Assembly: GCA_030248295.1 (NCBI GenBank)
Contig: JASANH010000812.1
Location: 744,001 to 808,000, forward strand
DNA from: Mesodorylaimus sp. YZB2_4
Lineage: Eukaryota; Nematoda; Enoplea; Dorylaimida; Dorylaimidae
Reading direction: 5' to 3'
Length of the DNA: 64,000 nucleotides
Positions 3,325-37,020 of the stretch are shown here, in pieces. A program made the position numbers and the translations under genes. The notes beneath the pieces are model-generated. The model saw only the letters and a list, made by a program, of their open reading frames with translations. It did not search any database and was not told where the DNA came from. Numbering within the stretch: the first letter of the stretch is position 1; every line of letters begins with the position of its first letter.

Positions 3325-4432
3325 ATGCCAAACACCACATGATTATTACTTCAATCCGCATCCACACTTCGTTTTGTCACCAATTTTTCGATTTTCGCTA
3401 TCTTCTACTACAAACCAACAGCATTATGCTTTGATCTGATCTGGCACACTGTGTGTATTTTGGCATTTCAGAAGCAGCGAAAATCGAATAGTTTTTATTC
3501 TTTTCAATTATATGAGATTATTGCCAAATGTTTGGACACTTGCGGCGCTTTCGTTAATTTGCTGCTTTACAATTGGGTGGCCGGTGTCAGTGGCAATAAT
3601 GGCTTTGCTTGGTATCGTAGAAATCACGCTCTGATGTGGTTTTCAGCCAGATTCGGCATAGCTTTCAATGATTTCACGACCAGTGTCAAATTATGTGCCG
3701 CTCTGTGCATGGCCATCGACAGATTCTACGCTCTGGCCAAGCCATTGGAGTATCGTAGTTTGAATCGGAAGAAATGGGAGGCCATCGCCGTCTTCAGCCC
3801 GCTCGGGGCCAGCATTTTGACCAATCTGCTCATGATATTCTTCTATCACGTGGAAAAAAGTGAAGAAGAAGGCTTGTACGAATTGGTCCAAAATGTGTCA
3901 TTCATTTCGAGCGATTCCGTATTGATTCTCATTTTGATTCGAATCGGCAGCTGGGCTGTGGCCATCGCTGCATTGCTAGTGTGCGGAATTGAAATAGTTT
4001 GGTTATATAAACGACGAAGTCAAAAAGTGCTGGAAATGACGTCGCAAGAAGCGGCAAAAGAAAAATCAGTTCTCGATAATGAGAGGACTTTATTTTTGTT
4101 GACCATTTTAAAAATCGTGTCAAGTTTTCAATAAATTTTCTTTTAAAATAGCACACGGGAGCTTGATAATTTTTGAGGCAGGTTTTGTCACTTGTGAAAG
4201 TCTTGTATTTACCTCGATTTGTTTTTTAGAAGTAACTTTATTCAATAGTTTAGATTTTTATCTTATGATCGCTATTAGTAAGCAGTTCAGGAAAAATATT
4301 CGCAGCGCCTTGCCTGGTGGTCGTGCATCCCTCATCGTGTCATCATCTAATTGCTCCGTCCTTGCTCTTTTTTTGCTGCTGGGGGGCTCGATCAAATACT
4401 GGGATCCGAGCACTAAAAATTGTTACCGATGA
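3325..4432 (+). pseudogene. Serpentine receptor pseudogene (paralogue of 7115-8179)
   Basis: This is a close copy of the intact receptor at 7115-8179, with long stretches almost identical at the nucleotide level (for example 3640-4080 against 7440-7900). Two lesions break it. A TGA stands at codon 6 (3340-3342). An extra A in the run before ATCGTG, near 4115, shifts the frame and leads to an early stop at 4132. The remaining C-terminal part, transmembrane 7 and tail, continues in another frame to 4432. The DRF motif after helix 3 and the conserved KPLEYRSLNRKKW loop survive. The copy probably arose by tandem duplication and died recently. An alternative is that it starts at the internal Met at 3451, giving a truncated protein that lacks most of helix 1. 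Confidence 0.85.
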
Positions 4433-6129: not shown

Positions 6130-7114
6130 TTGTTATCAAAGACGCTGGCAGTCAGTTCTGCCAATCTGACAAAATCAGGCCTAGGCACAAAGAAGGGCAT
6201 GCACTAGCTTTCCTTCATGTGTATATACGGCATTTACACTCACTAGAACACTGGCTTCCTGACATCACTTGAACCTGCTCCTTCATATCAATCCTCCAAC
6301 ATATCCTTCAGTACCACCAGGGCCTTAGCCTCGAAGTGTAGACAGCCGAGAACTTCTTTTGACTCCTGTGTCTTCTTAGAATTTACGGCACAAGTTTCCA
6401 ATGTTTCCGTGTCGAATGGCGCATGGAAAAGGGCTCCAGCCACCGCCGCGGTCACGTTGACGCTCCCTCTCAAATACCGCGTCAATATGACCCACGCGCG
6501 GTGGTCGCCCCTCTCAAATTCCATCCCCACGAACTAAATCCTAAGCCATTCATCTTGTGCTGTTTTATCAAAATGGCATTACTCGATTATTGGGCATATT
6601 CAATTTTCAGGCAAAGATACAATAGAGACGGCTCCATAAAGTTAACGGATCAATTCATTGGGCTATAATAATTATATATTCCTGATTTTGTTTTATTTCT
6701 GTTCTTTTTGACAATCTTTGCTCGCTCGAGAATATTCTGTGAGCTCTGTGAGGGCTTCTGAGGGCTCTGTGAGCGTACAAAGGTGAGCCAAAACTTGCCT
6801 TTCAATGTTCCCTGAAGCGACCTGAGCAAAGCAGCTTAACACAACGAAGATTCTTGACAAAAACGTCACTCAACTGAAGATATGCTGGATTATCGCACAA
6901 GATTACATTTTCTGCTCGTCGGCGAATGTCACTAAGAAGTTTTGCATCGCTGATGAAATTAAGGATTGAAGATTCTCTTAATTAAAAGAACTCACCGACA
7001 AGACGCGATCCTATTGCTCACTATTCGCCTTCTCAAAGAAGCTGTTGGACAAAATATCACCTTGCCATTCAGTCCTGTCCTCGTTTCTGTTCATACCGAT
7101 ATAACAGGTACAGA
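6130..7114. other. Upstream region of receptor gene, no gene seen
   Basis: No coding exon is supported. A GAGGGCTCTGTGAG-type short tandem lies around 6738-6775. The 5' UTR of the receptor at 7115 presumably begins within the last few hundred bases. Confidence 0.4.
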
Positions 7115-8179
7115 ATGTCGAATACAACAGTCGAAAACAACACTTGTCCTCTGATGCAGGCTGAATCGACTCGCCAGCTTGTGAATGAATTGTCGAATTT
7201 TGTAGTTTTTTATTTCAAACCCATCGCACTGTGTTTGGATCTGATTGGGCACACTTTGTGTATTCTGGCATTTTATAAGCAGCGTAAAACAAATAGTTTT
7301 TATTCTTTTCAATTATACGAGATTATTGCCAAATGTTTGGACACTTGCGGCGCTTTCGTTAATTTGCTGTTTTACAATTGGGTGGCCGGTGTCAGTGGCA
7401 ATAATGGTTTTGCTTGGTATCGAAGAAGTTACGCTCTAATGTGGTTTTCAGCCAAATTCGGCATAGCTTTCAATGATTTCACGACCAGTGTCAAATTATG
7501 TGCCGCTCTGTGCATGGCCATCGACAGATTCTACGCTCTGGCCAAGCCATTGGAGTATCGTAGTTTGAATCGGAAGAAATGGGAGGCCATCGCCGTCTTC
7601 AGCTCGCTCGGGGCCAGCGTTTTGACCAATCTGCTCATGATATTCTTCTATCACGTGGAAAAAAGTGAAGAAGAAGGCTTGTACAAATTGGTCCAAAATG
7701 TGTCATTCACTTCGAGCGATTTCGCATTGATTCTCATTTTGATTCGAATCGGCAGCTGGGCTGTGGCCATCGCTGCATTGCTAGTGTGCGGAATTGAAAT
7801 AGTTTGGTTATATAAACGACGAAGTCAAAAAGTGCTGGAAATGACGTCGCAAGAAGCGGCCAAAGAAAAATCAGTTCGCGATAATGAGAGGACTTTATTT
7901 TTGTTGACCATTTTAAAATCGTGTCAAGTTTTTAATGAGTTTTCTATAAAAATAGCTCATGGGTGTTTAAATATATTTAAAGCAGGCTTTAGTACTTGTG
8001 CGGGTATTTTGTTTGTCTCGATTAGGTTTATCGAAGTAACCACAGTGAATAGCTTGGATTTCTACGTTATGCTGATTATAAGTAAGCAGTTTAAGAAAAT
8101 GATTCGCAGTGCTTTGTGTGGTGGAGCAGCCTCTGTTACTGTAGGTAGCATTCGTGTTAGGGGCGCTCGTACTTTGTAA
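7115..8179 (+). CDS. Serpentine receptor (7TM GPCR), intact paralogue 1
   Basis: An uninterrupted 354-residue single-exon frame. The N-terminus carries two N-glycosylation sequons (NTT, NNT) and no signal peptide. Seven hydrophobic helices follow: about 28-53, 66-89, 118-137, 153-176, 196-228, 262-290 and 300-325. The helix-3 end has DRF at residues 137-139 in place of the canonical DRY, followed by a KPLEYR intracellular loop. The helix-7 region reads NSLDFYVMLIISKQF where rhodopsin-class receptors have NPxxY, followed by a short basic tail. This fits the nematode-type, FMRFamide-receptor-like or Srsx-like branch of rhodopsin GPCRs; the ligand cannot be inferred. It is the intact member closest to the pseudogene at 3325-4432 and a diverged relative of 10440-11480. 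The start is the only Met before helix 1 that keeps the sequons. Confidence 0.85.
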   Translation: MSNTTVENNTCPLMQAESTRQLVNELSNFVVFYFKPIALCLDLIGHTLCILAFYKQRKTNSFYSFQLYEIIAKCLDTCGAFVNLLFYNWVAGVSGNNGFAWYRRSYALMWFSAKFGIAFNDFTTSVKLCAALCMAIDRFYALAKPLEYRSLNRKKWEAIAVFSSLGASVLTNLLMIFFYHVEKSEEEGLYKLVQNVSFTSSDFALILILIRIGSWAVAIAALLVCGIEIVWLYKRRSQKVLEMTSQEAAKEKSVRDNERTLFLLTILKSCQVFNEFSIKIAHGCLNIFKAGFSTCAGILFVSIRFIEVTTVNSLDFYVMLIISKQFKKMIRSALCGGAASVTVGSIRVRGARTL

Positions 8180-10439: not shown

Positions 10440-11480
10440 CTATGCAGGTATACCTTGACTAACATTCACAGTCGCCCCTCCACCAGGCAAAGCGCTACGA
10501 ATCATTTTCTTAAACTGCTTACTAATAATTAACATGATATAAAAATCTAAACTATTGACTGTGGTCACTTCTATAAATCGAATCGATGTAAATAAAAGAC
10601 CTTCACAACTGATGAAACCAGCTTTAAATATATTCAAACACCCGTGGGTAATTTTCACTGAAAATTCATTCAAAACTTGACACGATTTCAAAATGGTTAG
10701 TAAAAATAAGGTTTTTTCATTCGATCGCCTCAACTTGTCTTTTGTTGTTTCTTGAAATGTCATTTCTAACACTTTTTGACTTCGTCGTTTGAATAACCAA
10801 ACGATTTGGATTCCGCAAATGACCAACACCAAAATTGCTGTGATCCAACTTCCTATGCGAACTAAAATAAGAGTCAATGCGAATCCGCTCGTCGTGAATG
10901 ACACATTCTGCACTAATTTGTAAAGACCTCCTTCTTCTATTTTTTCCACATTATAGAAGAATGTCATGAGCAAATTTGTTAAAATGCTCGCACTTTTCGA
11001 AGTAAAAATTGCAATACTTTCCCACTTTTTTCGATTCAAATTACGATAGGACAATGGCTTGGCCAGAGCATAAAATCTGTCGATGGCCATGGCCATCGCC
11101 GCGCATAATTTGAGACTCGTTGTGAAATCATTTAAAGCAATGCCGAATTTGGCAGAAAACCACATGAGAGCATAATTTCTTCGAAACCATTCCACTCCCT
11201 TGTTAGCTCCGGCCCCGGCTGACCAATCGTAAAAATATAGACTCATAAAAGCGCTGCACGTGTCCAAGCATTTGGCAATGATTTCGTATAATTGAAAGGA
11301 ATATAAATTATTTGATTTACGCTGTTTACAAAATGCCAAGATACATAAAATATGACCGAGCAGATCTATGCTCAAGACTGTGGGTTTGTAGTAAACGCCC
11401 GCAAAAATGGACAAATTGCTGACAAATCGACGAGTGGTCTCAGATTGCAAAAACGCGCATGTGTTATTTGTATTTGACAT
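10440..11480 (-). CDS. Serpentine receptor (7TM GPCR), intact paralogue 2
   Basis: An uninterrupted single-exon frame of 346 residues, on the strand opposite to its paralogues. It shares the whole architecture of 7115-8179: a short sequon-bearing N-terminus (NNT), seven helices, DRF after helix 3, a KPLSYRNLNRKKW loop, and a helix-7 segment NSLDFYIMLIISKQF. It differs at many positions in the extracellular loops (SAGAGANKGVEWFRR against VAGVSGNNGFAWYRR), where ligand specificity would reside. It is clearly older than the duplication that made the pseudogene. The ligand is unknown. The chosen Met is the first in frame and matches the paralogue start. Confidence 0.85.
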   Translation of the reverse strand: MSNTNNTCAFLQSETTRRFVSNLSIFAGVYYKPTVLSIDLLGHILCILAFCKQRKSNNLYSFQLYEIIAKCLDTCSAFMSLYFYDWSAGAGANKGVEWFRRNYALMWFSAKFGIALNDFTTSLKLCAAMAMAIDRFYALAKPLSYRNLNRKKWESIAIFTSKSASILTNLLMTFFYNVEKIEEGGLYKLVQNVSFTTSGFALTLILVRIGSWITAILVLVICGIQIVWLFKRRSQKVLEMTFQETTKDKLRRSNEKTLFLLTILKSCQVLNEFSVKITHGCLNIFKAGFISCEGLLFTSIRFIEVTTVNSLDFYIMLIISKQFKKMIRSALPGGGATVNVSQGIPA

Positions 11481-13435
11481 GGTCGGAGCTTATTGTTCAG
11501 GTTAGGAGTGAGAGTGATTATAAACAGCGGATAGGGCCACAACCACAGTGTCCTCTCGTTGCTGTATAAAATTGTCGTCGGTCAGCTGCATTTTTAAGGC
11601 GATAGGTGAACCTTTTTTAATATGTTCAAAAGAGAGGAACGTCCTTCTCAGCGTGCTCATATGGCCCCTTAGAAAATAATCTCCGAATGTCATAATAATG
11701 AGAATGTTTGAAATGACCCTTATTAGTGAAGATTCCGTAGCGCATGGGCTCCATGTAAAATGATCTTTGCTAAAGGACACTAGCCTTGTCCATGGATGTC
11801 GAAAGAAGAAAATCTGATGGAAGAATGCTTAATTTTTCAAGATTTTTTAGCTCTTTATAAGCCTTCGACAGGGCTTTTGACGCAGGTTAGAAAACGTTGC
11901 TTCAGAATTGTTAAAATCTCCCCTCATAAGAAGGCTTCTCTGCAGAACCCGGGAATTATCTAAGCGTCTTATCTGAGCAACTTTTTCATTTTTAATGAAG
12001 TCATGTGACTTTTTTTTTGAGACGCTGTTCAACTCCGCGCATCGAACAGACAACGAGGCAGGAAGTATGACCGCTCATTGTGTGACCATGTAGGATGCGT
12101 TTCGCGCAAGAGACGGGTGTTGATAGCCAGACCCAAGCAAGGCTGAGGTAATCATGAGTCCACATTTCTGTTCTAGCTGCTAGGGGATGTAGTTTCTGCC
12201 AAAGTTACTCACCCTTGATTATAAAGAAGGAAAAAAGATGTGACCCTAGGGAGGATCGAACCCTGCATTTTTCAGGGCTTCATCAGAAGCTTACTACGGC
12301 GAAGCATTGTCCATTGTCACGTTGATTCTGTGGTGGCCAACAAGTTTCAAAAAGCCTTTTTCCCTTAAACGTTGTGATAAATGCATTACTTCAAGAAAAT
12401 TCGGTTGGAAATGCTTTTACTATTTTAAGTTTAGAAATCAAGATACCTGTACCTTTTCTGTGCTCCGCCCTTTACTGTAGTTGGGAGGTCCCGGGGTCGA
12501 GCTGTTCTTCCGTCGGACGATGTTAAACTCCTGAGTCATGCACACCAGTTAAACAAACAGTCCAGGTGCTAGAAAAGCAATTAATAAAAAGGGACCATTT
12601 CGGTTTGGAGCTTGGACAGTTTTGTCTGCCTTGAGCCCTTAGATTTTTCTGGTATAGGCTTGGCAAGTGCGAAAGTAGCTTCAGCTAAAAATAGTATACT
12701 ACCTGGCACCTCCCTGATTTTTAATTATTTCACAGATTTTGAGACTCTGCTCCAGTGACACTCTGTTTCAGTGGCTGCTGTAAACTGGTCTAGATGCGAT
12801 GGATTTGTGATCCAGGGGGGTGTTCGCGATATGAACATGTTTGACATTTTGACTGCTGGTCAGTGAGTACACGCTTCTTCAATCCCGTGCCTCGACATGT
12901 CAGCTATTATACATTACACATAGGATATTCATTTCATATCTGTCCATCATTTTCTCGCACTATAAAGTCTCTTCGAGAAATAATCATCAAAGAATAATCT
13001 ATCAAAGCGTTTTCACTGGCGGGAGAGGTTAGTTCATGAATTCTGTCTTATAGCACACATTGAGGGATCGGATTTGCATTGGGGTATCCAGAAAATCAGA
13101 CAAAGTTCTTCTGCAAAGGCGATTTTTCTGTCTCCGCATTTGCGCAATTCCTTCATTATTCGCCAGCAGGATTTCTCCAGACACCTCGCCGCTGAACATT
13201 GTTGGATTAGACTATCTGACTAATCCAAGAAAAAAGAAAAACCCATTCATTATGAGGAAAATGCACGGACTGCTTCATCGAATGCAGCCGAAATCTGCCG
13301 AAACATGTCAAACATATACTCGTACTTAGAACATAAATCGTCTGTTCTTAATTTGAAATGAGTTTCCCACCGAAGGATGGGTATCGTACTGTATATATGA
13401 GTAAATTGGCCTGGCAATTAAAGCCATAAGCTATT
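11481..13435. other. Intergenic region with a pol III-like scrap
   Basis: On the minus strand near 12249-12272 a GGGTTCGATCCTCCC B-box-like sequence suggests another tRNA-derived repeat fragment. It has no closing stem. No gene is supported in the remainder. Confidence 0.35.
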
Positions 13436-15855: not shown

Positions 15856-16101
15856 ATGAAACGTTACTTGTATTCTGGCTTTTTTATTCTGGTAGTGATA
15901 CTTTATGGAGAGTTGACGTTCACTCGGGACCATTCGTTCGGCTTCATGCTGTATGATGCTGCTCCTACTGTACAGTTTAGCGACCCCAAGGCACTGGACT
16001 ACCCACATGCTTATCATGGCGCAGCCACCGTAATTTTAGTGTCTACAGAAGATTCTAGTTCGACAAACATATTGTCACTGCAGTCAAAGCCAGATTCGTG
16101 A
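15856..16101 (+). CDS. Possible small secreted protein
   Basis: An 81-residue open frame starts MKRYLYSGFFILVVILYG, which looks like a good signal peptide (basic start, then a run of F, I, L and V). The remainder is polar, acidic and Cys-free, and resembles no family that I know. It could be the first exon of a longer gene or a chance frame; neither a TATA box nor a clear splice donor decides. It is kept because the signal sequence is strong and the frame sits just downstream of the secreted-repeat gene on the other strand. Confidence 0.3.
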   Translation: MKRYLYSGFFILVVILYGELTFTRDHSFGFMLYDAAPTVQFSDPKALDYPHAYHGAATVILVSTEDSSSTNILSLQSKPDS

Positions 16102-16272: not shown

Positions 16273-19200
16273 TTACCCGAAAAGTCTCCCTAAATGACCG
16301 AGCAGCCCACCATGCCAACCAGACTGGACAACAGCGGGACCACTACGATGCCAAATCCAGTGACCGTCATCAAACCAATAGTAATTCCCATCGTAGCTGT
16401 CGCGACGTTCTTCGTGATCTGAAAATTGACAATTACACAACAGAAGCCGGAAACTGCATACATGCTGTGAAATTACCCCCCCCCCCCCCAATCCCGCAAA
16501 AGCTGACCATGCACTGATCCTTTACCCACTGATAGCCCCCATCGCAAAAGGCAGCGCAGCAGCAATGTGTGACCTGTTCCGGTAAGGCGCACTTATAGTC
16601 GACAAAATTTCTACACCTACACCTCGGGTAGGGGTAATAGCACGCGCTTAAGTATATGGCCATTACACCCACCCTAGGGGTAGGAGTAGAAATTTTGTCG
16701 ACTATAAATGCGCCTGTAGACGCGAGTGCCAGAGCCACTATTGAGATAGGTGAAAACCAAGAACAGGATTCAAGCGTGCACAAAAAACACGTTCGAATCC
16801 CATCCCTGTTATTTGAATTTATTTTTTCTAAGGTACACCATCGTGCAAACTGCTTACAGTGTCCATCGTCCCAATGAAGATGATCACCACTTGCATCAAC
16901 CCATCTGTTGTGACTTCTATCATAGCGATACCACTTTCTTGAATCTCTGTCCCAACGTTCTTCGTGCGCTACAAAAGACATATAACGTAACATAAATGCA
17001 AAAAAAATGCAAAACTCATACAGTCTGTCCCACGCCCCCAATTTCTTTTTCTGCCCCATCGATTCCCCCAACTAGATTCGCGGCGATCATTTCCACCACC
17101 TCTGCCACTGCGCGACCAAACCCAATGGTCTCGTCGATAGCGATAATAATTTCCGTCTGAATCATCCCAACGCTCTTCGCCTTCTGAAATTGAGACATCA
17201 TAGAGTACTCCTATTAGCCTGGTCCTAAGCATCGCATTGCGGCTGTAGACTTGAAGCTTCTGTATGATGTAGCTTATAATACTGTATGTGTGTCAAGTCA
17301 CAGGACGTCCTACCGCTGTATATAATTATATTTATGGGTGATACTAGGAGGAGTAGCGAGAACAACTTTGTGGTATGATGGCTGAAACGGATTTAGAATT
17401 TTAAGTCTGAGTGATAAGCACGAAAAGTATCTTATAGCTTTATGTATCTTCGAGACAATCATGATTTTAAATTTGCCGCTGTTCGAATTCGCGTCGAATT
17501 TGCATCAAAAAACAGTGGGAAATTTAAAGTTATGCATTTTGAAGTGTTCTGAACTTTGCATTCCCGTTTCTCGGCTTGAGCAGATTCCAGATGTCTCTAA
17601 TGATAGGCTGACGATGAGTCCGCGACTTATCACTTTCACATGGCAATGGCTATTCATGGGAGGCACATGTGAGATAAAACGAGGTATCTTTTTCAGTCTC
17701 AGGGCCTGATAGTCCTGCTGACGTGAATTTTGAGCAGCCTGGTGGGGGAGGTGAGAATGAAGCAAGTGGCAATCAATTGTGGGCGGAGTCGAGTGAGCTT
17801 GTAGGAGCACTGTATCACAGCTGTGTTTAAAAACCACCATCCCATGCGCAAGACAAAACAAACTTTTCAAATAATCATCAGGGGCATTTACCACTCACCG
17901 CGTCCACTGCCCCACTTCAGATGATCTCCACGTGCGTTGACCCACCTGTGGTGCCCCGGGTCGTAGCGGTACCATCTCTTAGAATCTCTGTCCCATCGCT
18001 CTTCATGAGCTGAAAAAATCATCCATAATCAACGGATGAAATGACAAAAGAAGTAGCACTCATACAATCTTTTCCAATTCGCCAGTTTCTGCGGCTACCC
18101 CATTGGTTGCCCCAACGAGATTCGCGGCGATCATTTCCACCCCCACTGCCACTGCGCGACCACACCCAATGGTCTCTTCGATAGCGATAATAGTTGCCAT
18201 CGGAATCATCCCAACGCTCTTCGCCCTCTGAAAACAACTATGTTGATCGTTCTCGACAGTATGCACTGCATGTGTGTGCCTTACCGCGTCCATCGCCCCA
18301 CTTCAGATGATCACCGCGCGCATTTTCCCACCGATGGTGGCCTGGGTCATATCGGTACCACCTCTTCGAATCTCTGTCCCATCGTTCTTCATGCGCTGAA
18401 AAAAAACCGTCGGTAAACAAAACAACTGGGAAAAGGAGACTCCTTCATACAATCTTTCCCATCTCCCCAGTTTCTGCGACGACCGTATTGGTTGCCCCAA
18501 CGGGATTCTCGATCATTTCCACCCCGTCCACCACTTCTTGTCCAAACCCAATGGTGTCTTTCATAGCGATAATGGCTGCCATCAGAATTATCATAACGTT
18601 CTTCTCCATCTGAATTTTACTTTTTCCTGCATCATCTACAGAATGCACAGCCAGAGCTTACCCCGTCCATCGCCCCATTTCAGATGGTCTCCACGTGCAT
18701 CAACCCATTTGTTATGACTTTTATCATAGCGATACCATCTCTTCGAATCTCTATCCCACCGTTCTTCGTGGGCTTAAAAGCCTTGTTTTTAGACATTGTC
18801 ATACAAGAAGGGGAGGCAAATATCATTACAATCTTTTCCTCGACCCCAGTTTCTTCGACTGCCGTATTGTTCACCCCAGTGGGAGTCGTGGCTATGACCG
18901 CCTCTCCCATTGCCATTGCGCGACCAAACCCAGTGACCACTCTCATAGCGATAGTAACTGCCATCGGAGTTATCGCGACGCTCTTCACCATCTGCAACGA
19001 ATGGACTAGTAAGGCTGGAGTGACCCAGCGACAGGGGAGTCAATCTCATCTTGGGTGATCTTATTCATGCATAAGTCATCATTTGTTGCCCCAAGACAAG
19101 ACAATATGATTTTAGAGGCCATGGAACAGTCTTTAAAGGATTTGTGTAACCTTTTTGCCTGGTGGGCCATGGCGAGTGGGAGAGAAAGTCATCGATAACA

Positions 19201-19875
19201 TCAACCCAAGAGGAACCTTGGCTGGCAGAATCAACCTCTCAGGTTGATGTTTCAGACGTAGGGGAGAGTATCAAGTATTCTCCCTCCCACTCGCCAGGCA
19301 CGAGGGTTACACTTGATTACTCTGGCCTTGCAGTACCGGAGTGGAAAAACTAGGGCGACTGCTGCTAACTGCAACTTACTGCGTCCCGTTCCCCACTTGA
19401 CGTGATCTCCACGTGCCTCAGTCCATCTATTGTGGCTCTGATCATATCGATACCACTTTCTTGAATCTTTATCCCAGCGTTCTTCGTGAGCTGCAATCAA
19501 AATATCAAATCGAGATCAAATGTAGCCGTGCCTGCTTGCAATAAAATTAAATATAAAAAATATATATTTTAGGCTATTACTTACAGTTTCGTCCCCTTCC
19601 CCAGTTTCTTCTGCTGCCATATTGATTGCCCCACCGTGTTTCGTCGCTTCTACTGCCGCTACTGCTTCGACCGCCACCTCTGCCGCGTCCATTTCTGTTT
19701 CTTCCCCGCCCACCCCTGCCGCCACCCGGGTCACATGCAACTATAATCAAAGAGTCCACGTACTTATCACATCACGACTCGACTCGCTGTCATCCCGTCA
19801 TCGCTTACCAAAAACCACAAGCCAAAGCACTATCAAGAGAACAAAACCAGCTGACCGACCCATCGTGCCGCTCAT
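16273..19875 (-). CDS. Secreted protein of alternating Trp/Tyr/Arg-rich modules
   Basis: Twelve exons give 522 residues: signal 19875-19809; A1 19740-19585; B1 19490-19380; A2 18991-18830; B2 18772-18662; A3 18609-18451; B3 18395-18285; A4 18227-18066; B4 18009-17899; A5 17183-17022; B5 16968-16858; A6 16418-16273 ending in TAA. Every intron is phase 1. Exon 1 encodes a signal peptide (FVLLIVLWLVVF). B modules are 37 residues and all 111 bases long; A modules are about 52-54 residues. Both start with [G/H]EERWDxDS, then YRY, then HxxW or HxW. A continues with a Gly/Arg/Asn stretch and RRNWG; B ends ARGDHLKWGDGR. A1 is Gly/Arg-rich and diverged; A6 is truncated and ends GHLGRLFG. One Cys follows the signal peptide and the repeats have none. 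A faint WW-domain likeness (W, DG, YY, W) is noted, but I know no matching family. It is likely an extracellular structural, adhesive or defence protein, but function is unknown. Confidence 0.85.
16585..16715. repeat. Intronic hairpin in the B5-A6 intron
   Basis: Arms of about 55 bases (16585-16639 and 16661-16715) are inverted copies at roughly 85 percent identity with a loop of about 20 bases. The core TATAGTCGACAAAATTTCTA is shared by both arms. It may be a tiny MITE, or a structured RNA if transcribed with the intron. Confidence 0.65.
19144..19312. mobile_element. MITE-like element, family A copy 2
   Basis: The termini GTGTAACC and GGGTTACAC are inverted, and the GTGCCTGG and GCGAGTGGGAG motifs are mirrored inside. 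It is homologous to 5854-6129 and lies in the intron between modules B1 and A2 of the secreted-repeat gene. Confidence 0.6.
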
Positions 19876-20655
19876 AATTATTTCTCATAGACTCCATTGT
19901 TTCTTATTCGCGGATCTATGTCATGGCTTCTACCTACGCACACTGCACTATTTTCGTGTCTACATGCCTCGGGCAATTTGTGTTGACTGGCTGAACTGGA
20001 AACTAACGTGTTAAAAAAATAAGACAAAAGGTATGTAACAGGTTTAAACACGGATGTACGTGGTGTAGAGGCGATATTTATATTTGTAATAATGGAAATG
20101 ACCAAATGCATTTTGCCAATGGGCAGGGCGTGCTCTTAACTGTGATATCAACATGAGTAAAGGAAACTGTTTTTGACACCCCCGCTCGAGTTCCATCGTT
20201 CTTTGCATAACAAAGGAAACTACCTGGCCTATCACACTGTCCAGTCAGGCAGCTGTGTTCGAAACCAGATTTTACCACTTTTACTGCGCAGTACTAACTG
20301 TAAAATACTCTTGCATCGGTGCTTATTTCTTACTGGACACCCAGATACTCATGGTTGCCACTTGGCAGCCAAGCACTTCAAAACGCGATGCGAGCAGAAA
20401 ACGCCATTCATTCACACAAACAGAAAATCGCAAGGTAGAAAGAAGGCTGGCCAAAAGAAGGAACATAAGAGAAATCGCAAATTGAGCAATCAATAGTCAC
20501 AAATGGACAAACCAGCAAGCGTGCACTCCAGCAGAAGGCAACCTGGGCGTAAGACATACTCGAAACGGGCCTGTCAAAAATCCAGAGCTTGCTCAATTTT
20601 TAAAGGAATAATGTGATTTGCAACTGTGTTCCTGCTGTATAATAAGCAAACAAGA
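19876..20655. other. Upstream region of the secreted-repeat gene
   Basis: The promoter of the minus-strand gene should lie here. I see no clear TATA box. Open frames on either strand lack motifs. Confidence 0.35.
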
Positions 20656-25430: not shown

Positions 25431-27922
25431 CTACTTGCCTCCCTTTTTCGGCTTGATCGCTTGGCTGTCACCCGCTGCGTACGTCATCGTATTCATCCTA
25501 ATTCCCTTCGATTTTCGTGTTTGTCGTGCATGACTACTCACTTCTTCATTCCCTTCCAAAAATTGATTTGCATCGTGCAAAAGAGCGCGAATTTCATTCA
25601 TCCGGATGCCAGGTTTCTTGCGACGAGGAGGAGATTTAAACAAATTCGACAAGCCATCCACTCCATCTGGAAATTTATCTTTCCCGCCAATTCCATCCGT
25701 GTTACTAGTTTTGAATAATTGCGCGATTCCAGTCAAATTCGGCGACGAAACTGGTTTCATTTCTTCAAATAAGTTCGAGATGCAATTGAGCGCTGGCGAT
25801 TCAGAAACACTGACTTGCTGAAATAATTTCGATAAACCGCCCAGCCGTGGCGATCCTGGTGGTTTCTCTACTTTGAACAAATCAGCGACACCAACGTAAT
25901 CAGGTTCTTTTTGTTCTTTAATTTTTTCTTCTGGCAAGTTTCGATTATTTTCGTGCAATAGCTGAGCGATAGCGACCAATTTCGGTGGCACCACTTTTTG
26001 ACGATGAGCGAACGAACGACGAGGTTTAGCAAGTGATGGCATTTCGAACTTTGGCACAGAGGGATCAACTTTTCGAACCAGTTGACTAAGATCGAATGGA
26101 TTTGGCGACAATTCATTTTCTTCAGTTTCCATACAAGGAGCTGAAAATCAAGTCCCGTAGTCAGGGATTTTTGAAGCGTTTTTGACCAGAAGCTCAAAAC
26201 TTTTTCAAACACTCACCTTCATTCTTTTGCTCATCGACTATTGGCAAACGTGAACTTTCCATCACCGGTTGACCATGTGGTTCTATTTCAAACACGAACG
26301 GACGATCGATAGTGATTGTAGCCGTGCCAGCACCAGCCACTACCTGATCGCTGTCTATCGATCCATTTGTGACGACGCTAATCGTTTCAGTTTCGATTAC
26401 TGATTTTCCATAACTTAAGATAGGGATCTTCGAATCACGGCCATTAATTACAGGCGGGAATAATTGTTTCTTGATCGAAACTGAGCTTGAATGCTTCGAA
26501 AAACCAGGCGTTAAATTTTTTAGAAATGGTGTTGAAGAATTTTTTGATCGGATCGATTTCATACGATAATTACCCCCTGTAGTAATGTTGCCCGCCTTCG
26601 ACAGCTTTCGATTTCCGCTAGGTTTTAAACAAGTTTTCAAAACGCGATGCAAAAAATTGATCGATTGAGCAACTCTAGGCGCTGATTGCGGATATCGAAT
26701 AAATTCTTGTTGGGCTGCCACAAAACGATACGTACGACTGACCACTGTAAATACGTCGCCATCTTTCAACTTATTCGGTGCCCCTGGTACAACTTGTTCA
26801 CCATTCAAAATAGTCGGCCTTTTGCAATCGATATTGATCAAAAAAGCCTGAAAAACCATTGATAAGGAACTAAGCATCAAGAGGGAACATCACTACACAC
26901 TTCTTTTTTGTCGTTGAATTTCAATTCGCAATGCACTGGCGCTACTGATGCGTCGAAAATTCGAATACAGCATGCATCTGAGCTGAAAAGAATAATGAGA
27001 CATTTTTATAAAACTCGATGAGAAAAAAGCAGAATGGAGTAAATAAAGGGAATCTCGTGTCCTAAACATGCTCATAAACAACCGCCGTTCTTGAAATGAG
27101 GCTGAAACGCAACACCAACCGATATATCGGCTGACCGGTAATATTGGCCGACAGTGTGGATTTCTCATCGTCAGTCAATTCGAGTTCTGGGCGAATTCAG
27201 GGTTTGCTATGTAAAGTGAATACGCCGAGGAACAGCTAATTATTCAGTGCCAAAGAGTGCATTTCCCAAGAAAAAAGTTGGACGACACTACCCGTGACCG
27301 AAACAGGGTTCATACAAGCTAAAATATTTTCACATGTTCTTCTAGGTTTATCAGAAAAGAATTTGATTTTCCCTGATTTCCCGCAGCACCAACTACTAAA
27401 CCAATTTTAACTGATTTACAGCATGATTACCTTCCTTGATCGAACGGATTCGCAAAATCTGATCGATCAGATAAAAAGTTTGACTTTCTCCAGAATGATT
27501 ATACTCAGGAAAAGTGAGTGATTAAAAAATTTGAAGCCTCAAAACGCAATTTCTCAAAGCTCTCCCCTTCGTCGGTCCCTGTGGAATCATCAACCATGTG
27601 CGTCCGTTGCCTCGCGGCAACTGGATATACACTAGGGTGTACGGATAGCATAAATCTCGCACCCCACCCCCTCGGATACACATCAAAAATAATTGTAATG
27701 GGATCTTATTAAAGCATTCAATATCTTCTCATAAGGATTTCAAAAACTTTAGAAAGGCTTCGGTTTTCCACTAGGTACTGTATCTACGATACAATTCTGT
27801 CTGGCTGTCAGTTTTACAGCTTACCTTCCGATCTGGCACAGCTTTGTGGTCAGCGGGTATTCATATCCAGCGACGCCACCAGTCGAGTCTATGATCGTTC
27901 CGTAAACTGGTCGGTACGGCAT
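25431..27922 (-). CDS. Ki-67-like FHA-domain protein
   Basis: Four exons (27922-27825, 26982-26901, 26847-26217, 26140-25431) give 506 residues with consistent phases. Residues 1-85 form a forkhead-associated domain that binds phosphothreonine: CCIRIFDASVAPVHCEL matches the Ki-67 segment around its SKQHC motif, and RPTILNGEQV plus LKDGDVFTVV match Ki-67 PTQVNG and LKHGDVITI. The last exon carries at least five short units of the form SPxLxGIxxLF (about residues 351-441: GVADLFK, GGLSKLFQ, NCISNLFE, TGIAQLFK, DGLSNLFK), like the GFxELFQTP core of Ki-67 repeats. RRSFAHR near residue 311 sits where Ki-67 has its PP1-docking RVSF. In vertebrates Ki-67 coats mitotic chromosomes. The start is the first Met after a likely 5' UTR acceptor. 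The protein is far shorter than vertebrate Ki-67. Confidence 0.75.
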
Positions 27923-30282: not shown

Positions 30283-30842
30283 TCACAAGCTCGGCGCTTG
30301 TCCAGTTGGGGTCTTCACAAAGTTTTTTTCAGTCAGCCCGGTTCTATTCTTGAAGATTTCAAAGGCAAAGTCGATTTGACTTTGGGGCAAATTTTGTTGT
30401 CGTCCCAAAATCCATCCTGCTGTTTGTTTGAACAAGCCTAGAATCTTGCTCTCGCTGTAGATGACAGTGATGTTGGTGTAGTCGGTGTAGAGGACTCGGT
30501 AGTCGCCACGTGGCTGCCACCAATAGAACTTGAGTGACAGGTGAGCAGGTTGGCTCGGATTGATGATTCGTGCTGTTCCCTCGATTTTATTCCATCGCTT
30601 CTTCTTTGGATCGAATTGGCGATTTGTAACATTGAGTGAGCCATCGGGTTTGATGGTGTAGTAGGCCTCGATATCGCTGCCATGCTCGAATCGAATATTT
30701 TTTGAATGGTAATTTTCGAACCATTTACCCTGATATCGAGATATATCGAAATTTTCCTGCAATGGAATGTCGCTCTTGCTCTTGGCCATCGCAACATGAC
30801 CAATGGTCAGCGAAAGGAGTGTGAGAACGACATTTTCATCAT
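30283..30842 (-). CDS. Lipocalin, signal-peptide frame interrupted
   Basis: A calycin-fold carrier of small hydrophobic ligands, similar to 32437-33006. Motifs in order are GKWFENY (lipocalin GxW), RVLYTDYTNITVIY (TDY motif), and WILGRQQ (conserved Arg of the third motif). The open frame from the Met at 30789 starts just before the mature part and has no secretion signal. Upstream in the same frame is VVLTLLSLTIGHVAMA, an evident signal-peptide core, but its initiating ATGATGAAA (30842) is one base out of frame. I infer a one-base deletion, a sequencing error, or use of the internal Met for a cytosolic form. A TATA box is at 30923-30930. Single coding exon. Confidence 0.8.
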
Positions 30843-30922
30843 GTTTGAAAGGAAGATTTGGGAAGCTTAGGCCAGATAGTCAGGGATATTCAGACGAAAT
30901 ATCCCATCAAATTGCACCTGGC

Positions 30923-32400: not shown

Positions 32401-32436
32401 TTCAGAGCGGTATTTCTCTAATCTTTCATGCAAAAA

Positions 32437-33006
32437 ATGGTGGGCTCTGAATTTTTGGCAACGGGTTTGGCGGTAATTTGCTGCTTAAGCCGAAGTGTCA
32501 CGATGGCCGCGAACGATATTCCGCTTCAAGAAAATTTTGATGTCAAAAAATACATGGGGAAATGGTTTGAGAATTATCGCTCAAAAGAGATCCCATTCGA
32601 GTCAGGCACGGATATCCAAGCAATTTATACGCTTAATCCCGACAACACTATCAATGTCACCAATCGACAATACATGCCAGACAAGAAGGTATGGGATAGA
32701 ATAGAAGGAACTGCCCGCCCGCTAAACCCTAATCAACCAGCTCATCTTTTGGTGAAATTTTTCTCCTGGCAACCGCCTGGCGATTACCGCGTCCTTTACA
32801 CCGACTATACCAACATCAGTGTGGTCTACAGCGAGGCTTCAGTTCTCGATTTGTTCGACGTCAAAGCGGGTTGGATTTTGGGACGGCAACAAAATTTGCC
32901 TCAAGTTCAAATTGATCAAGCATTTGAAATATTTGAGAATATAACTGGATTGAGTAGGGACGAGTTTTTGAAAACACCAACTGGAAAAGCACCTTCGTTA
33001 GACTGA
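32437..33006 (+). CDS. Secreted lipocalin
   Basis: A single-exon gene of about 190 residues. A signal peptide (MVGSEFLATGLAVICCL) precedes the mature domain. The lipocalin motifs are in order: GKWFENY, RVLYTDYTNISVVY, and WILGRQQNLP. Family members of the apolipoprotein D and retinol-carrier type bind lipids, pigments or odorants; the ligand is not predictable here. It pairs head to head with the lipocalin at 30283-30842, and the two mature parts are close in sequence, so they came from one local inverted duplication. The Met at 32437 is preferred over the one at 32428 because it gives a more typical signal peptide; either is possible. Confidence 0.88.
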   Translation: MVGSEFLATGLAVICCLSRSVTMAANDIPLQENFDVKKYMGKWFENYRSKEIPFESGTDIQAIYTLNPDNTINVTNRQYMPDKKVWDRIEGTARPLNPNQPAHLLVKFFSWQPPGDYRVLYTDYTNISVVYSEASVLDLFDVKAGWILGRQQNLPQVQIDQAFEIFENITGLSRDEFLKTPTGKAPSLD

Positions 33007-35123: not shown

Positions 35124-36977
35124 CTACAGCCTTGGAATTGTGGGCGCTGGGCCAGAAACTAAAAATGACCAAAAATTACAAAAAGCTGAAGATGAGGAAA
35201 TAAAAAATTTACAAGTAATTGGAACGTAGGATGCGAAAGGCGGATACGCGGAAATAAACTGTTGACATTGCAGTGGGCCACCGTTCACTGCATTGGAGAC
35301 TGGTTGGAAAACTGGCGCACCACCCTTTTCTAATACGGCTCGTTTAGCCGATGCATTATGCGCCATCTGAAATACGCCATCAAAAATTTGATCTTTGAAA
35401 ACCAAAAAAATTAATCAATAATTAATCAATTACCTCCATCCTTTCAAATCTTACGTTCGAAGATTTTTGAGCTTGGTCGATCGTTGCCAAGTGTATCGGC
35501 GTCTGAGTTGCTGGTCCAGCACTCAGAACTCCATTCATCTGAAAATATTTTAAAAAATATTCTCATCCTTGAAAGATTTCTCGAAAAGTTAATCATACCG
35601 CCCCGAACGCGTCTGGCGACGAAGCGATCATGACGTGATTTGTTGGGTATACGGTGGCTGTGTTCAACCAAGGAGCGTATGGATTATACGCGGCCGAACC
35701 ACCAGCAGGCATGAGAGGAGTACCGGCTGAGCTGGGCTGAAAAATCGATAATTTTCATCAGCTTCAAGTACAAATGTCTCGACTGATGTACTTTTTAAAA
35801 AATGCCGTGAATCAGGACACGATCACACTCAAAATTATAGAAAAAGTCAAGTTAAAATTAATTTTCCCGCCACAATACTATATGCAGGGGTGACAGATGA
35901 CATTTTCGAATTTCCCGCCGAAGTTTTTTCGCGTCTTGCCGCACACTTTATTCTGGCATAACCAGTGATAATAAATTCAGTCAAAAAGTTTTGTAAATAG
36001 TTGCAAATCCTAGTTTTCTTACCACAGTCGCTGCAAATGGAGCCAAGGGTCCAAAATTTGGTGCTGCCATTGATGTAGCGAACGAGGCTGCTGCTTGAGC
36101 ATTGGACATTTGCGCCATGACATAATTTTTCAAAGCGAAATTATTTCGGCCATTATTCAATACTTGCTCTTTCAAATGTTGAGGTGGATGCAGGAATTTG
36201 CAAACGCTCGCGCCTCGAGTGCAACGATTCTGGAAGTGCGTAAAAACATGAAAAACTAGCAAAATGGATCATGTTTCAAAAAAGCTAGAAGTCAATAAAG
36301 CTTAAATATTTTTTACCACTTCGACTAACTTTTTATTGTTTGGTCTCGCCTGTGCGCAAGAGCTCATATTTTTAGCGCGCTTATGTGAGACTGCCGCATT
36401 AATAGCGTCGAAATGTGATGAGAAACTGAGCGCGGGAATTTGAATTTTTCAAGCACGTCTGTTTATAAAAAGTTTTGTCGCTTACTTTGAGACTATCGTA
36501 GCAAGCAATGACTCGCCCATTTTGAACTTCGACATGTTGCAGTGGATGAGCGAATTTGCATTCTTGCTCGTTTCGACTGCATTGACCGCGTTGAAATTCA
36601 CGACACACTTCGACTTGCAACCATGTCGGATCTTTGACATTCATGACATGACTGATCAATGCCATACGATTCATTTGCTGATTCAATACTTGACCTGTTT
36701 GTGGAGCGAAGCCACCATTTTGAGCGTTCAAATTATAATAAGCGAACGATTGAGGAAGATCGCAAGTCGAAACTGGCGAGAATGTGCTTGGTCGTGGACG
36801 AGGGTTCACGATTGCAGTGCCAACAGTGCCACCATTTCCATTGCTCCCGTTGGCCGTCGCACTGCCGTCCGTCGTCACCGCGCCAGCCACTGGAGACGGA
36901 GGATTCGAATTCGAACCATTAGAATTCCCGCTCATCGTCGTGCCGTTCCCGCTGACATTACCGTTTTCGTCGTACAT
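35124..36977 (-). CDS. mbl: Muscleblind-like RNA-binding splicing factor
   Basis: Six exons (36977-36486, 36229-36023, 35736-35599, 35538-35434, 35366-35213, 35158-35124) give 376 residues. A low-complexity Asn/Gly/Ser/Thr N-terminus leads into one CCCH pair: [18 protein letters not shown], then CKFAH, and across the exon 1-2 junction IACYDSLK with [10 protein letters not shown] and [18 protein letters not shown] after the fingers is the conserved muscleblind extension. The fingers bind YGCU-type RNA to regulate alternative splicing. The family in vertebrates and insects often has two pairs; here one is visible. The last intron is only 54 bases, a multiple of three without stops, so retention would add 18 residues in frame. 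An alternative GTAAGA donor lies inside exon 4 near 35453. An upstream noncoding exon is likely, since AG precedes the Met. Confidence 0.9.
36430..36450. promoter_or_regulatory. E2F/CHR-like composite site in muscleblind intron 1
   Basis: GCGCGGGAATTTGAATTTTT joins an E2F core (GCGCGGGA) to TTTGAA with the same spacing as the promoter copies. Function is inferred only. Confidence 0.4.
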
Positions 36978-37020
36978 TCTGCGCAAGATAAGCCAAGCAA
37001 AACAAATTCAGGGCGAAATT

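Follow-up and report, generated by a model that had tools for sequence, protein, structure and literature searches.

A nematode family of putatively secreted proteins built from two related, alternating modules

The gene and its modules

In this study, we describe a gene on the minus strand (16273-19875) of the window, by which we mean the whole stretch of 64,000 nucleotides that was analysed. Rebuilt from the sequence, the gene has 12 exons whose 1569 coding bases contain no internal stop; from 1 to 12 the exons measure 67, 156, 111, 162, 111, 159, 111, 162, 111, 162, 111 and 146 bases. The introns, 11 in number, are all of the GT-AG type and all in phase 1, and most of them are only 52-57 bases long. 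The frame is open from the ATG at 19875 to the stop ending at 16273, and the product has 522 residues counted from this first ATG. The conserved start is probably Met5 (19863), giving 518 residues, because a paralogue on another contig (C27) keeps the MGRSAG found at this second ATG of the window gene while its own upstream ATG is out of frame. The first-pass annotation of this locus had described twelve exons, phase-1 introns, five 111-base exons encoding a module B and an open frame to a stop, and all of these were reproduced on rebuilding the gene. It had also counted six exons encoding a module A; the lengths (156, 162, 159, 162, 162 and a short last one) hold, but exon 2 carries only an A-type tail, and in exon 12 the A-type core is followed only by a short end. 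The features are as follows.

20075..20082, minus strand: TATAAATA box (TATA box), also kept by the C27 paralogue and lying 219 bases before the ATG at 19863
19809..19875, minus strand: exon 1, signal-peptide-like start MSGTMGRSAGFVLLIVLWLVVF (leader judged by eye; conserved start codon probably 19863)
19585..19740, minus strand: exon 2 (156 bases), short Gly/Arg-rich stretch and A-type tail RWGNQYGSRRNWGRGRN, tail only
19380..19490, minus strand: exon 3 (111 bases), B module 1
18830..18991, minus strand: exon 4 (162 bases), A module
18662..18772, minus strand: exon 5 (111 bases), B module 2, its peptide identical to that of C27 exon 3
18451..18609, minus strand: exon 6 (159 bases), A module
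18285..18395, minus strand: exon 7 (111 bases), B module 3, of which 36 residues were used for a structure model
18066..18227, minus strand: exon 8 (162 bases), A module, of which 53 residues were used for a structure model
17899..18009, minus strand: exon 9 (111 bases), B module 4
17022..17183, minus strand: exon 10 (162 bases), A module
16858..16968, minus strand: exon 11 (111 bases), B module 5, with RGD replaced by SGD
16273..16418, minus strand: exon 12 (146 bases), last A core, short tail and stop

The similarity between the window gene and the C27 paralogue extends beyond the coding exons: in a block that runs from exon 2 to a point some 330 bases before the start, they share 72% identity. 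Elsewhere in the family the only TATA match was a TATATA at -58 in one gene on contig C266 (gene X), and no TATA box was found in the upstream stretch searched of a second gene there (gene Z). For neither the window gene nor the C27 gene do the roughly 375 bases that follow the stop contain a poly-A signal (AATAAA or ATTAAA). Just beyond the 3' end of the window gene, on the opposite strand (about 15856-16101, plus strand), there is a short reading frame with a signal-peptide-like start, as judged by eye.

The B module has the consensus SHEERWDxDSxxWYRYDxxxxxWxxARGDHxxWxxGR over 37 positions, 11 of which, including Trp, His, Gly, Asp and Glu residues, are invariant among 16 aligned B modules. 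The A module begins with a B-like core, which is followed by a Gly/Arg/Trp-rich tail of variable length. Judged by profile-profile comparison (probability 95.3, E 2.2e-8, 24 columns), A and B are homologous, and the earlier proposal that both descend from one unit is borne out. The same annotation had noted that the repeats lack Cys, which is correct for the window gene, where the single Cys is in exon 2 and the repeats have none. However, this does not extend to the family, because the C266 genes contain four B modules that are shorter by two residues, three of them with Cys at the position of Trp6. After removal of an assumed leader of 20 residues, the window protein is about 60.6 kDa with a pI of 9.84 and a net charge of about +21, and is composed of 18.1% Arg, 16.3% Gly, 10.8% Asp, 9.2% Trp, 6.6% His, 5.8% Tyr and 0.2% Cys. 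We infer that the protein is secreted because its leader, as assessed by eye, is signal-like; by the same assessment, signal-like starts are present in three of the four genes of the family.

Relatives, selection and the age of the repeats

Searches of the genome's contigs (145 Mb in 1067 contigs) found relatives in two other places and no further clusters beyond these and the window. The C27 paralogue is complete, with seven modules in 8 exons that follow the exon plan of the window gene, and the third cluster, on C266, comprises genes X and Z, whose listed exons are open, together with one broken copy. With the window gene included, the nematode family comprises at least four genes. The module counts in the four genes are 11, 7, 9 and 11 in identical order, which agrees with the earlier view that the A+B pair is the unit of gain and loss. 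The glycine-rich segment that precedes the modules ranges across the family from about 25 residues to an exon of 310 residues; it is short in the window gene, and a glycine-rich region is present in two of its relatives. The 310-residue exon belongs to gene Z, is 54.5% Gly, 14.8% Arg and 9.0% Asp, and contains tandem repeats whose periods range from 18 to 87 bases. Two further pieces were seen beside these genes: a decayed exon-2-like fragment (RDGGRSNEIWWGNRYKLGK) upstream of the C27 paralogue (G000:C27:648405-648455, minus strand), and a secreted-looking protein with tandem units like PKNLLAPNNGLSYGINYDDKAKK that adjoins the C266 module genes (G000:C266:27262-28311, minus strand).

Between the window and C27 genes, dN is 0.085 and dS 0.581 over eight exon pairs (296 codons), a dN/dS of 0.146 that ranges from 0 to 0.39 by exon pair, and therefore the two genes are under purifying selection. 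Since two independent copies are open and constrained to this degree, and since the paralogue is complete and shares the exon plan, this is a functioning protein-coding gene and not a chance pattern.

The age of the repeats is a different matter from what had been supposed. The first-pass annotation held neighbouring units to be nearly identical in their bases and the expansion to be recent, and neither statement survives the comparison. Base identity is about 84% for B exons 7 and 9 as for A exons 8 and 10, the former differing at 17 of 108 sites (dS 1.15) and the latter at 25 of 159 (dS 0.59). Over seven neighbour comparisons within the window gene (four of B and three of A), dS runs from 0.44, for A exons 6 and 8, up to saturation. 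At E 0.01 no intron of the window gene matched a second one within it, which is a weak test as most are only 52-57 bases long, and all eight of the intron matches obtained were to introns of the C27 paralogue. Because dS between neighbouring units is high, the expansion is not recent; on this divergence the repeats are old and are held similar by selection on the protein.

Predicted fold, resemblance to known families and possible function

A model of the B module was made with AlphaFold2 from the 36 residues of exon 7 and five window sequences. It predicts a three-stranded beta sheet (residues 3-6, 11-16 and 21-24) with a mean pLDDT of 76.0, which is 82-87 over the first 20 residues, and a pTM of 0.42. 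The A model, from the 53 residues of exon 8, also has three strands in its core, but its mean pLDDT of 53.7 is poor. In Foldseek the B model gave 39 rows at E up to 10, none of them significant; 11 of these weak rows were WW-domain proteins, such as Pin1, Ess1 and TCERG1, and 3 were LytC, a protein with choline-binding repeats. The A model gave a single row, which was not significant, and VIA-align kept 3 of 42 chains for the B model, none of them WW.

Sequence searches likewise placed the protein in no known family. In Pfam the closest profile to the whole chain was Kelch_6 (E 8.1e-4), at 19.8 bits against a cut-off of 25.3 and with no single stretch passing, and DUF5710 followed at E 0.056; two composite sequences of the C266 genes matched no Pfam family. 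Taken singly and at E up to 10, the 16 B modules gave scattered matches to 6 families, with no family recurring in more than 3 modules, and the 16 A modules gave 1 family, although this listing is incomplete above E 0.1 because the HMMER filters drop most matches beyond that value. NCBIfam contained no match for the window protein and the PDB none, by sequence, for the whole chain or the A profile, while the B profile drew five weak PDB rows with a best E of 0.27. No relatives were found among plasmids, bacterial and archaeal genomes or viral contigs, and a phage collection gave one weak match, to a phage portal protein (E 4). Within the scope of these collections the protein may be undescribed, as the first-pass annotation had it.

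Three known modules nevertheless share features with the B module. The WW domain (PF00397) is a compact antiparallel sheet of three strands that carries Trp and Tyr, a shape which B may share if its predicted strands hold, and a WW-like fold had been put forward for checking in the first-pass annotation. In a WW domain, two Trp residues stand about 20-22 residues apart and a Pro follows the second. In B, however, Trp6, which Cys or Tyr replaces in 4 of the 16 aligned modules, is 17 residues or less from Trp23 and no Pro follows in any of the 16. At E ≤ 10 the WW profile was not listed for any of 16 B or 16 A modules, nor at E ≤ 1 for the full chain. With the fold matches also weak, the modelled shape of B is WW-like in strand count only. 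The Kelch repeat (PF13964) shares with B the Tyr-x6-Trp spacing, the best stretch being residues 83-99. In the Kelch motif a Gly-Gly doublet precedes this spacing, whereas B has no such doublet, the match is under the cut-off, and among single B modules only 1 of 16 matched (E 0.06). Kelch repeats build a closed propeller of four-stranded blades; our models cover single exons only, and the number of modules varies within the family (7, 9, 11 and 11). Choline-binding repeats (PF01473), such as those of LytC, are tandem aromatic hairpins with a W-x6-W-Y motif, a spacing that can be matched by eye in our modules. The bacterial units are, however, about 20 residues long as against 37 in B and 54 in A, and no choline-binding or cell-wall-binding profile was listed for the chain, the C266 composites or the single modules in Pfam. 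A more general likeness may be to glycine-rich, silk-like proteins of cuticle and eggshell matrices, which are also secreted-looking, repetitive and rich in Gly with aromatic and charged residues, and whose symmetrical phase-1 exons are open to gain or loss; the A and B modules differ from this kind in matching no searched family at cut-off. To our knowledge, it is unusual for two related modules to alternate in an ordered row.

We favour the view that these are secreted structural or adhesive matrix proteins, to which we assign a probability of roughly 0.6 from composition and architecture; the family looks like a putative undescribed extracellular building material or glue. Under such a scheme, each module core would fold as a small three-stranded antiparallel beta sheet bearing Trp and Tyr side chains, and the Gly/Arg/Trp-rich A tails would keep the cores apart as flexible linkers. 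Modules would touch one another at many weak points, through aromatic and charged contacts and possibly through oxidative cross-links, so that the chains may harden as a fibre or a glue, or as a layer of eggshell or cuticle; in the relatives the long glycine-rich region would take part as well. It is this region in two relatives that lends further weight to the extracellular structural role suggested in the first-pass annotation, together with the purifying selection, the two further genes with equal module order, the composition, the B strands and the shared TATA box. Gain and loss by pairs is also easier to reconcile with an open-ended polymer than with a closed ligand-binding domain. Against the matrix reading stand the shortness of the window gene's own Gly-rich stretch, the poor A model, the B pTM of 0.42, the missing poly-A signal after the two complete genes, the missing TATA box of gene Z and the mere TATATA of gene X, and the lack of a match to any known structural protein in the collections searched. 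Moreover, 11 invariant positions of 37 exceed the needs of a bulk filler and would also suit a ligand site.

A more specific version, which we offer tentatively, is that a new lineage-restricted module, in which a 37-residue aromatic three-stranded sheet alternates with a 54-residue sister, has been fused to silk-like glycine regions. It might then make up a nematode silk or glue that is so far undescribed, such as a material of the caudal gland, the eggshell or the cuticle surface, held together by Trp, Tyr and Arg contacts where other nematode coats rely on disulfides and collagen. Secreted glues of nematodes are little known at the molecular level, and if the proposal is true, it would give these animals a novel protein module as well as a novel class of extracellular material. 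The four genes, with 7, 9, 11 and 11 modules, are comparable and offer a clear case of protein growth by phase-1 exon pairs, and the B module, at 37 residues, is small enough for synthesis and structure solution.

The main rival is a secreted multivalent binder, lectin-like or of the cell surface, in which each three-stranded module would present a Trp/Tyr/Arg/Asp/His site and the tandem arrangement would give avidity for a glycan, a microbe or a host surface. We consider it unlikely, though the invariant residues of B, the LytC rows and the sub-threshold Kelch_6 match speak for it, since those fold matches are not significant, no lectin or cell-wall-binding family was listed in the profile searches, and long Gly-rich regions such as those of two relatives are atypical of soluble lectins. 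It is still less probable that the protein is a cationic antimicrobial or another secreted defence protein, an option raised by the first-pass annotation that has found little support besides positive charge. The Arg/Trp-rich composition and the small multigene family would suit such a role, but the C27 paralogue is nearly neutral by charge count (about +3, pI 8.83), and the chain is long, repetitive and strongly conserved, with no cleavage plan seen. Similarly improbable is a secretion directed at host or prey, which supposes a parasitic or predatory worm; a secreted-looking multigene family with no relative in the plasmid, bacterial, archaeal or viral collections would be compatible with it, but the selection seen is purifying and not that of fast change, and the relatives are silk-like. 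Least probable of all is an integrin ligand acting through RGD, as only 9 of the 17 B modules that the four genes contain carry this tripeptide, its Arg is replaced by K, S, H, N or D in other copies and its Asp is altered in two, while Gly28 and His30 are invariant in the 16 aligned, so that the loop is probably kept for another reason and integrin binding is unlikely to be a conserved function of the B modules.

Genome context and other genes of the window

With a C. elegans major sperm protein as query, 34 matches were found in the genome, and the 20 that are nearly full length show 45-46% identity. On the strength of these multicopy genes, the genome is that of a nematode. In the PDB, one copy is closest to major sperm proteins (E 4.7e-32, against 2.2e-6 for VAP-A), and two copies that were read encode identical protein across the major sperm protein part. 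Copies lie on G000:C1, C13, C93, C98 and other contigs and are open over the matched length. The abundant (TTAGGC)n repeat is a second mark of a nematode genome. Five repeats of TTAGGS gave 831 and 781 matches, and among the matches listed nearly all were TTAGGC; those listed include (TTAGGC)n arrays on G000:C15, C17, C18, C28, C52 and C60, several of them far from contig starts. The SL1 leader is a mark of rhabditid-type nematodes, and an exact SL1 sequence had no match in the genome. These features would suit a nematode distant from C. elegans, perhaps one of the early-branching enoplean lineages.

Within the window, three related single-exon frames (3343-4134 and 6986-8179, plus strand; 10440-11489, minus strand) resemble seven-transmembrane receptors by eye, and the second of them matches Pfam 7tm_1 at 8.3e-8. 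Two related single-exon ApoD-like lipocalins lie on opposite strands (30283-30879, minus strand; 32422-33006, plus strand), the first matching Lipocalin_2 at 2.5e-19 and apolipoprotein D at 1.8e-25. Frames at 25431-26889 (minus strand) are FHA-domain-like by eye and carry repeated GLSKLF/GIAQLF segments, perhaps of a Ki-67-like protein, and a frame at 36399-37007 (minus strand) is, by eye, like a muscleblind-type zinc-finger exon.
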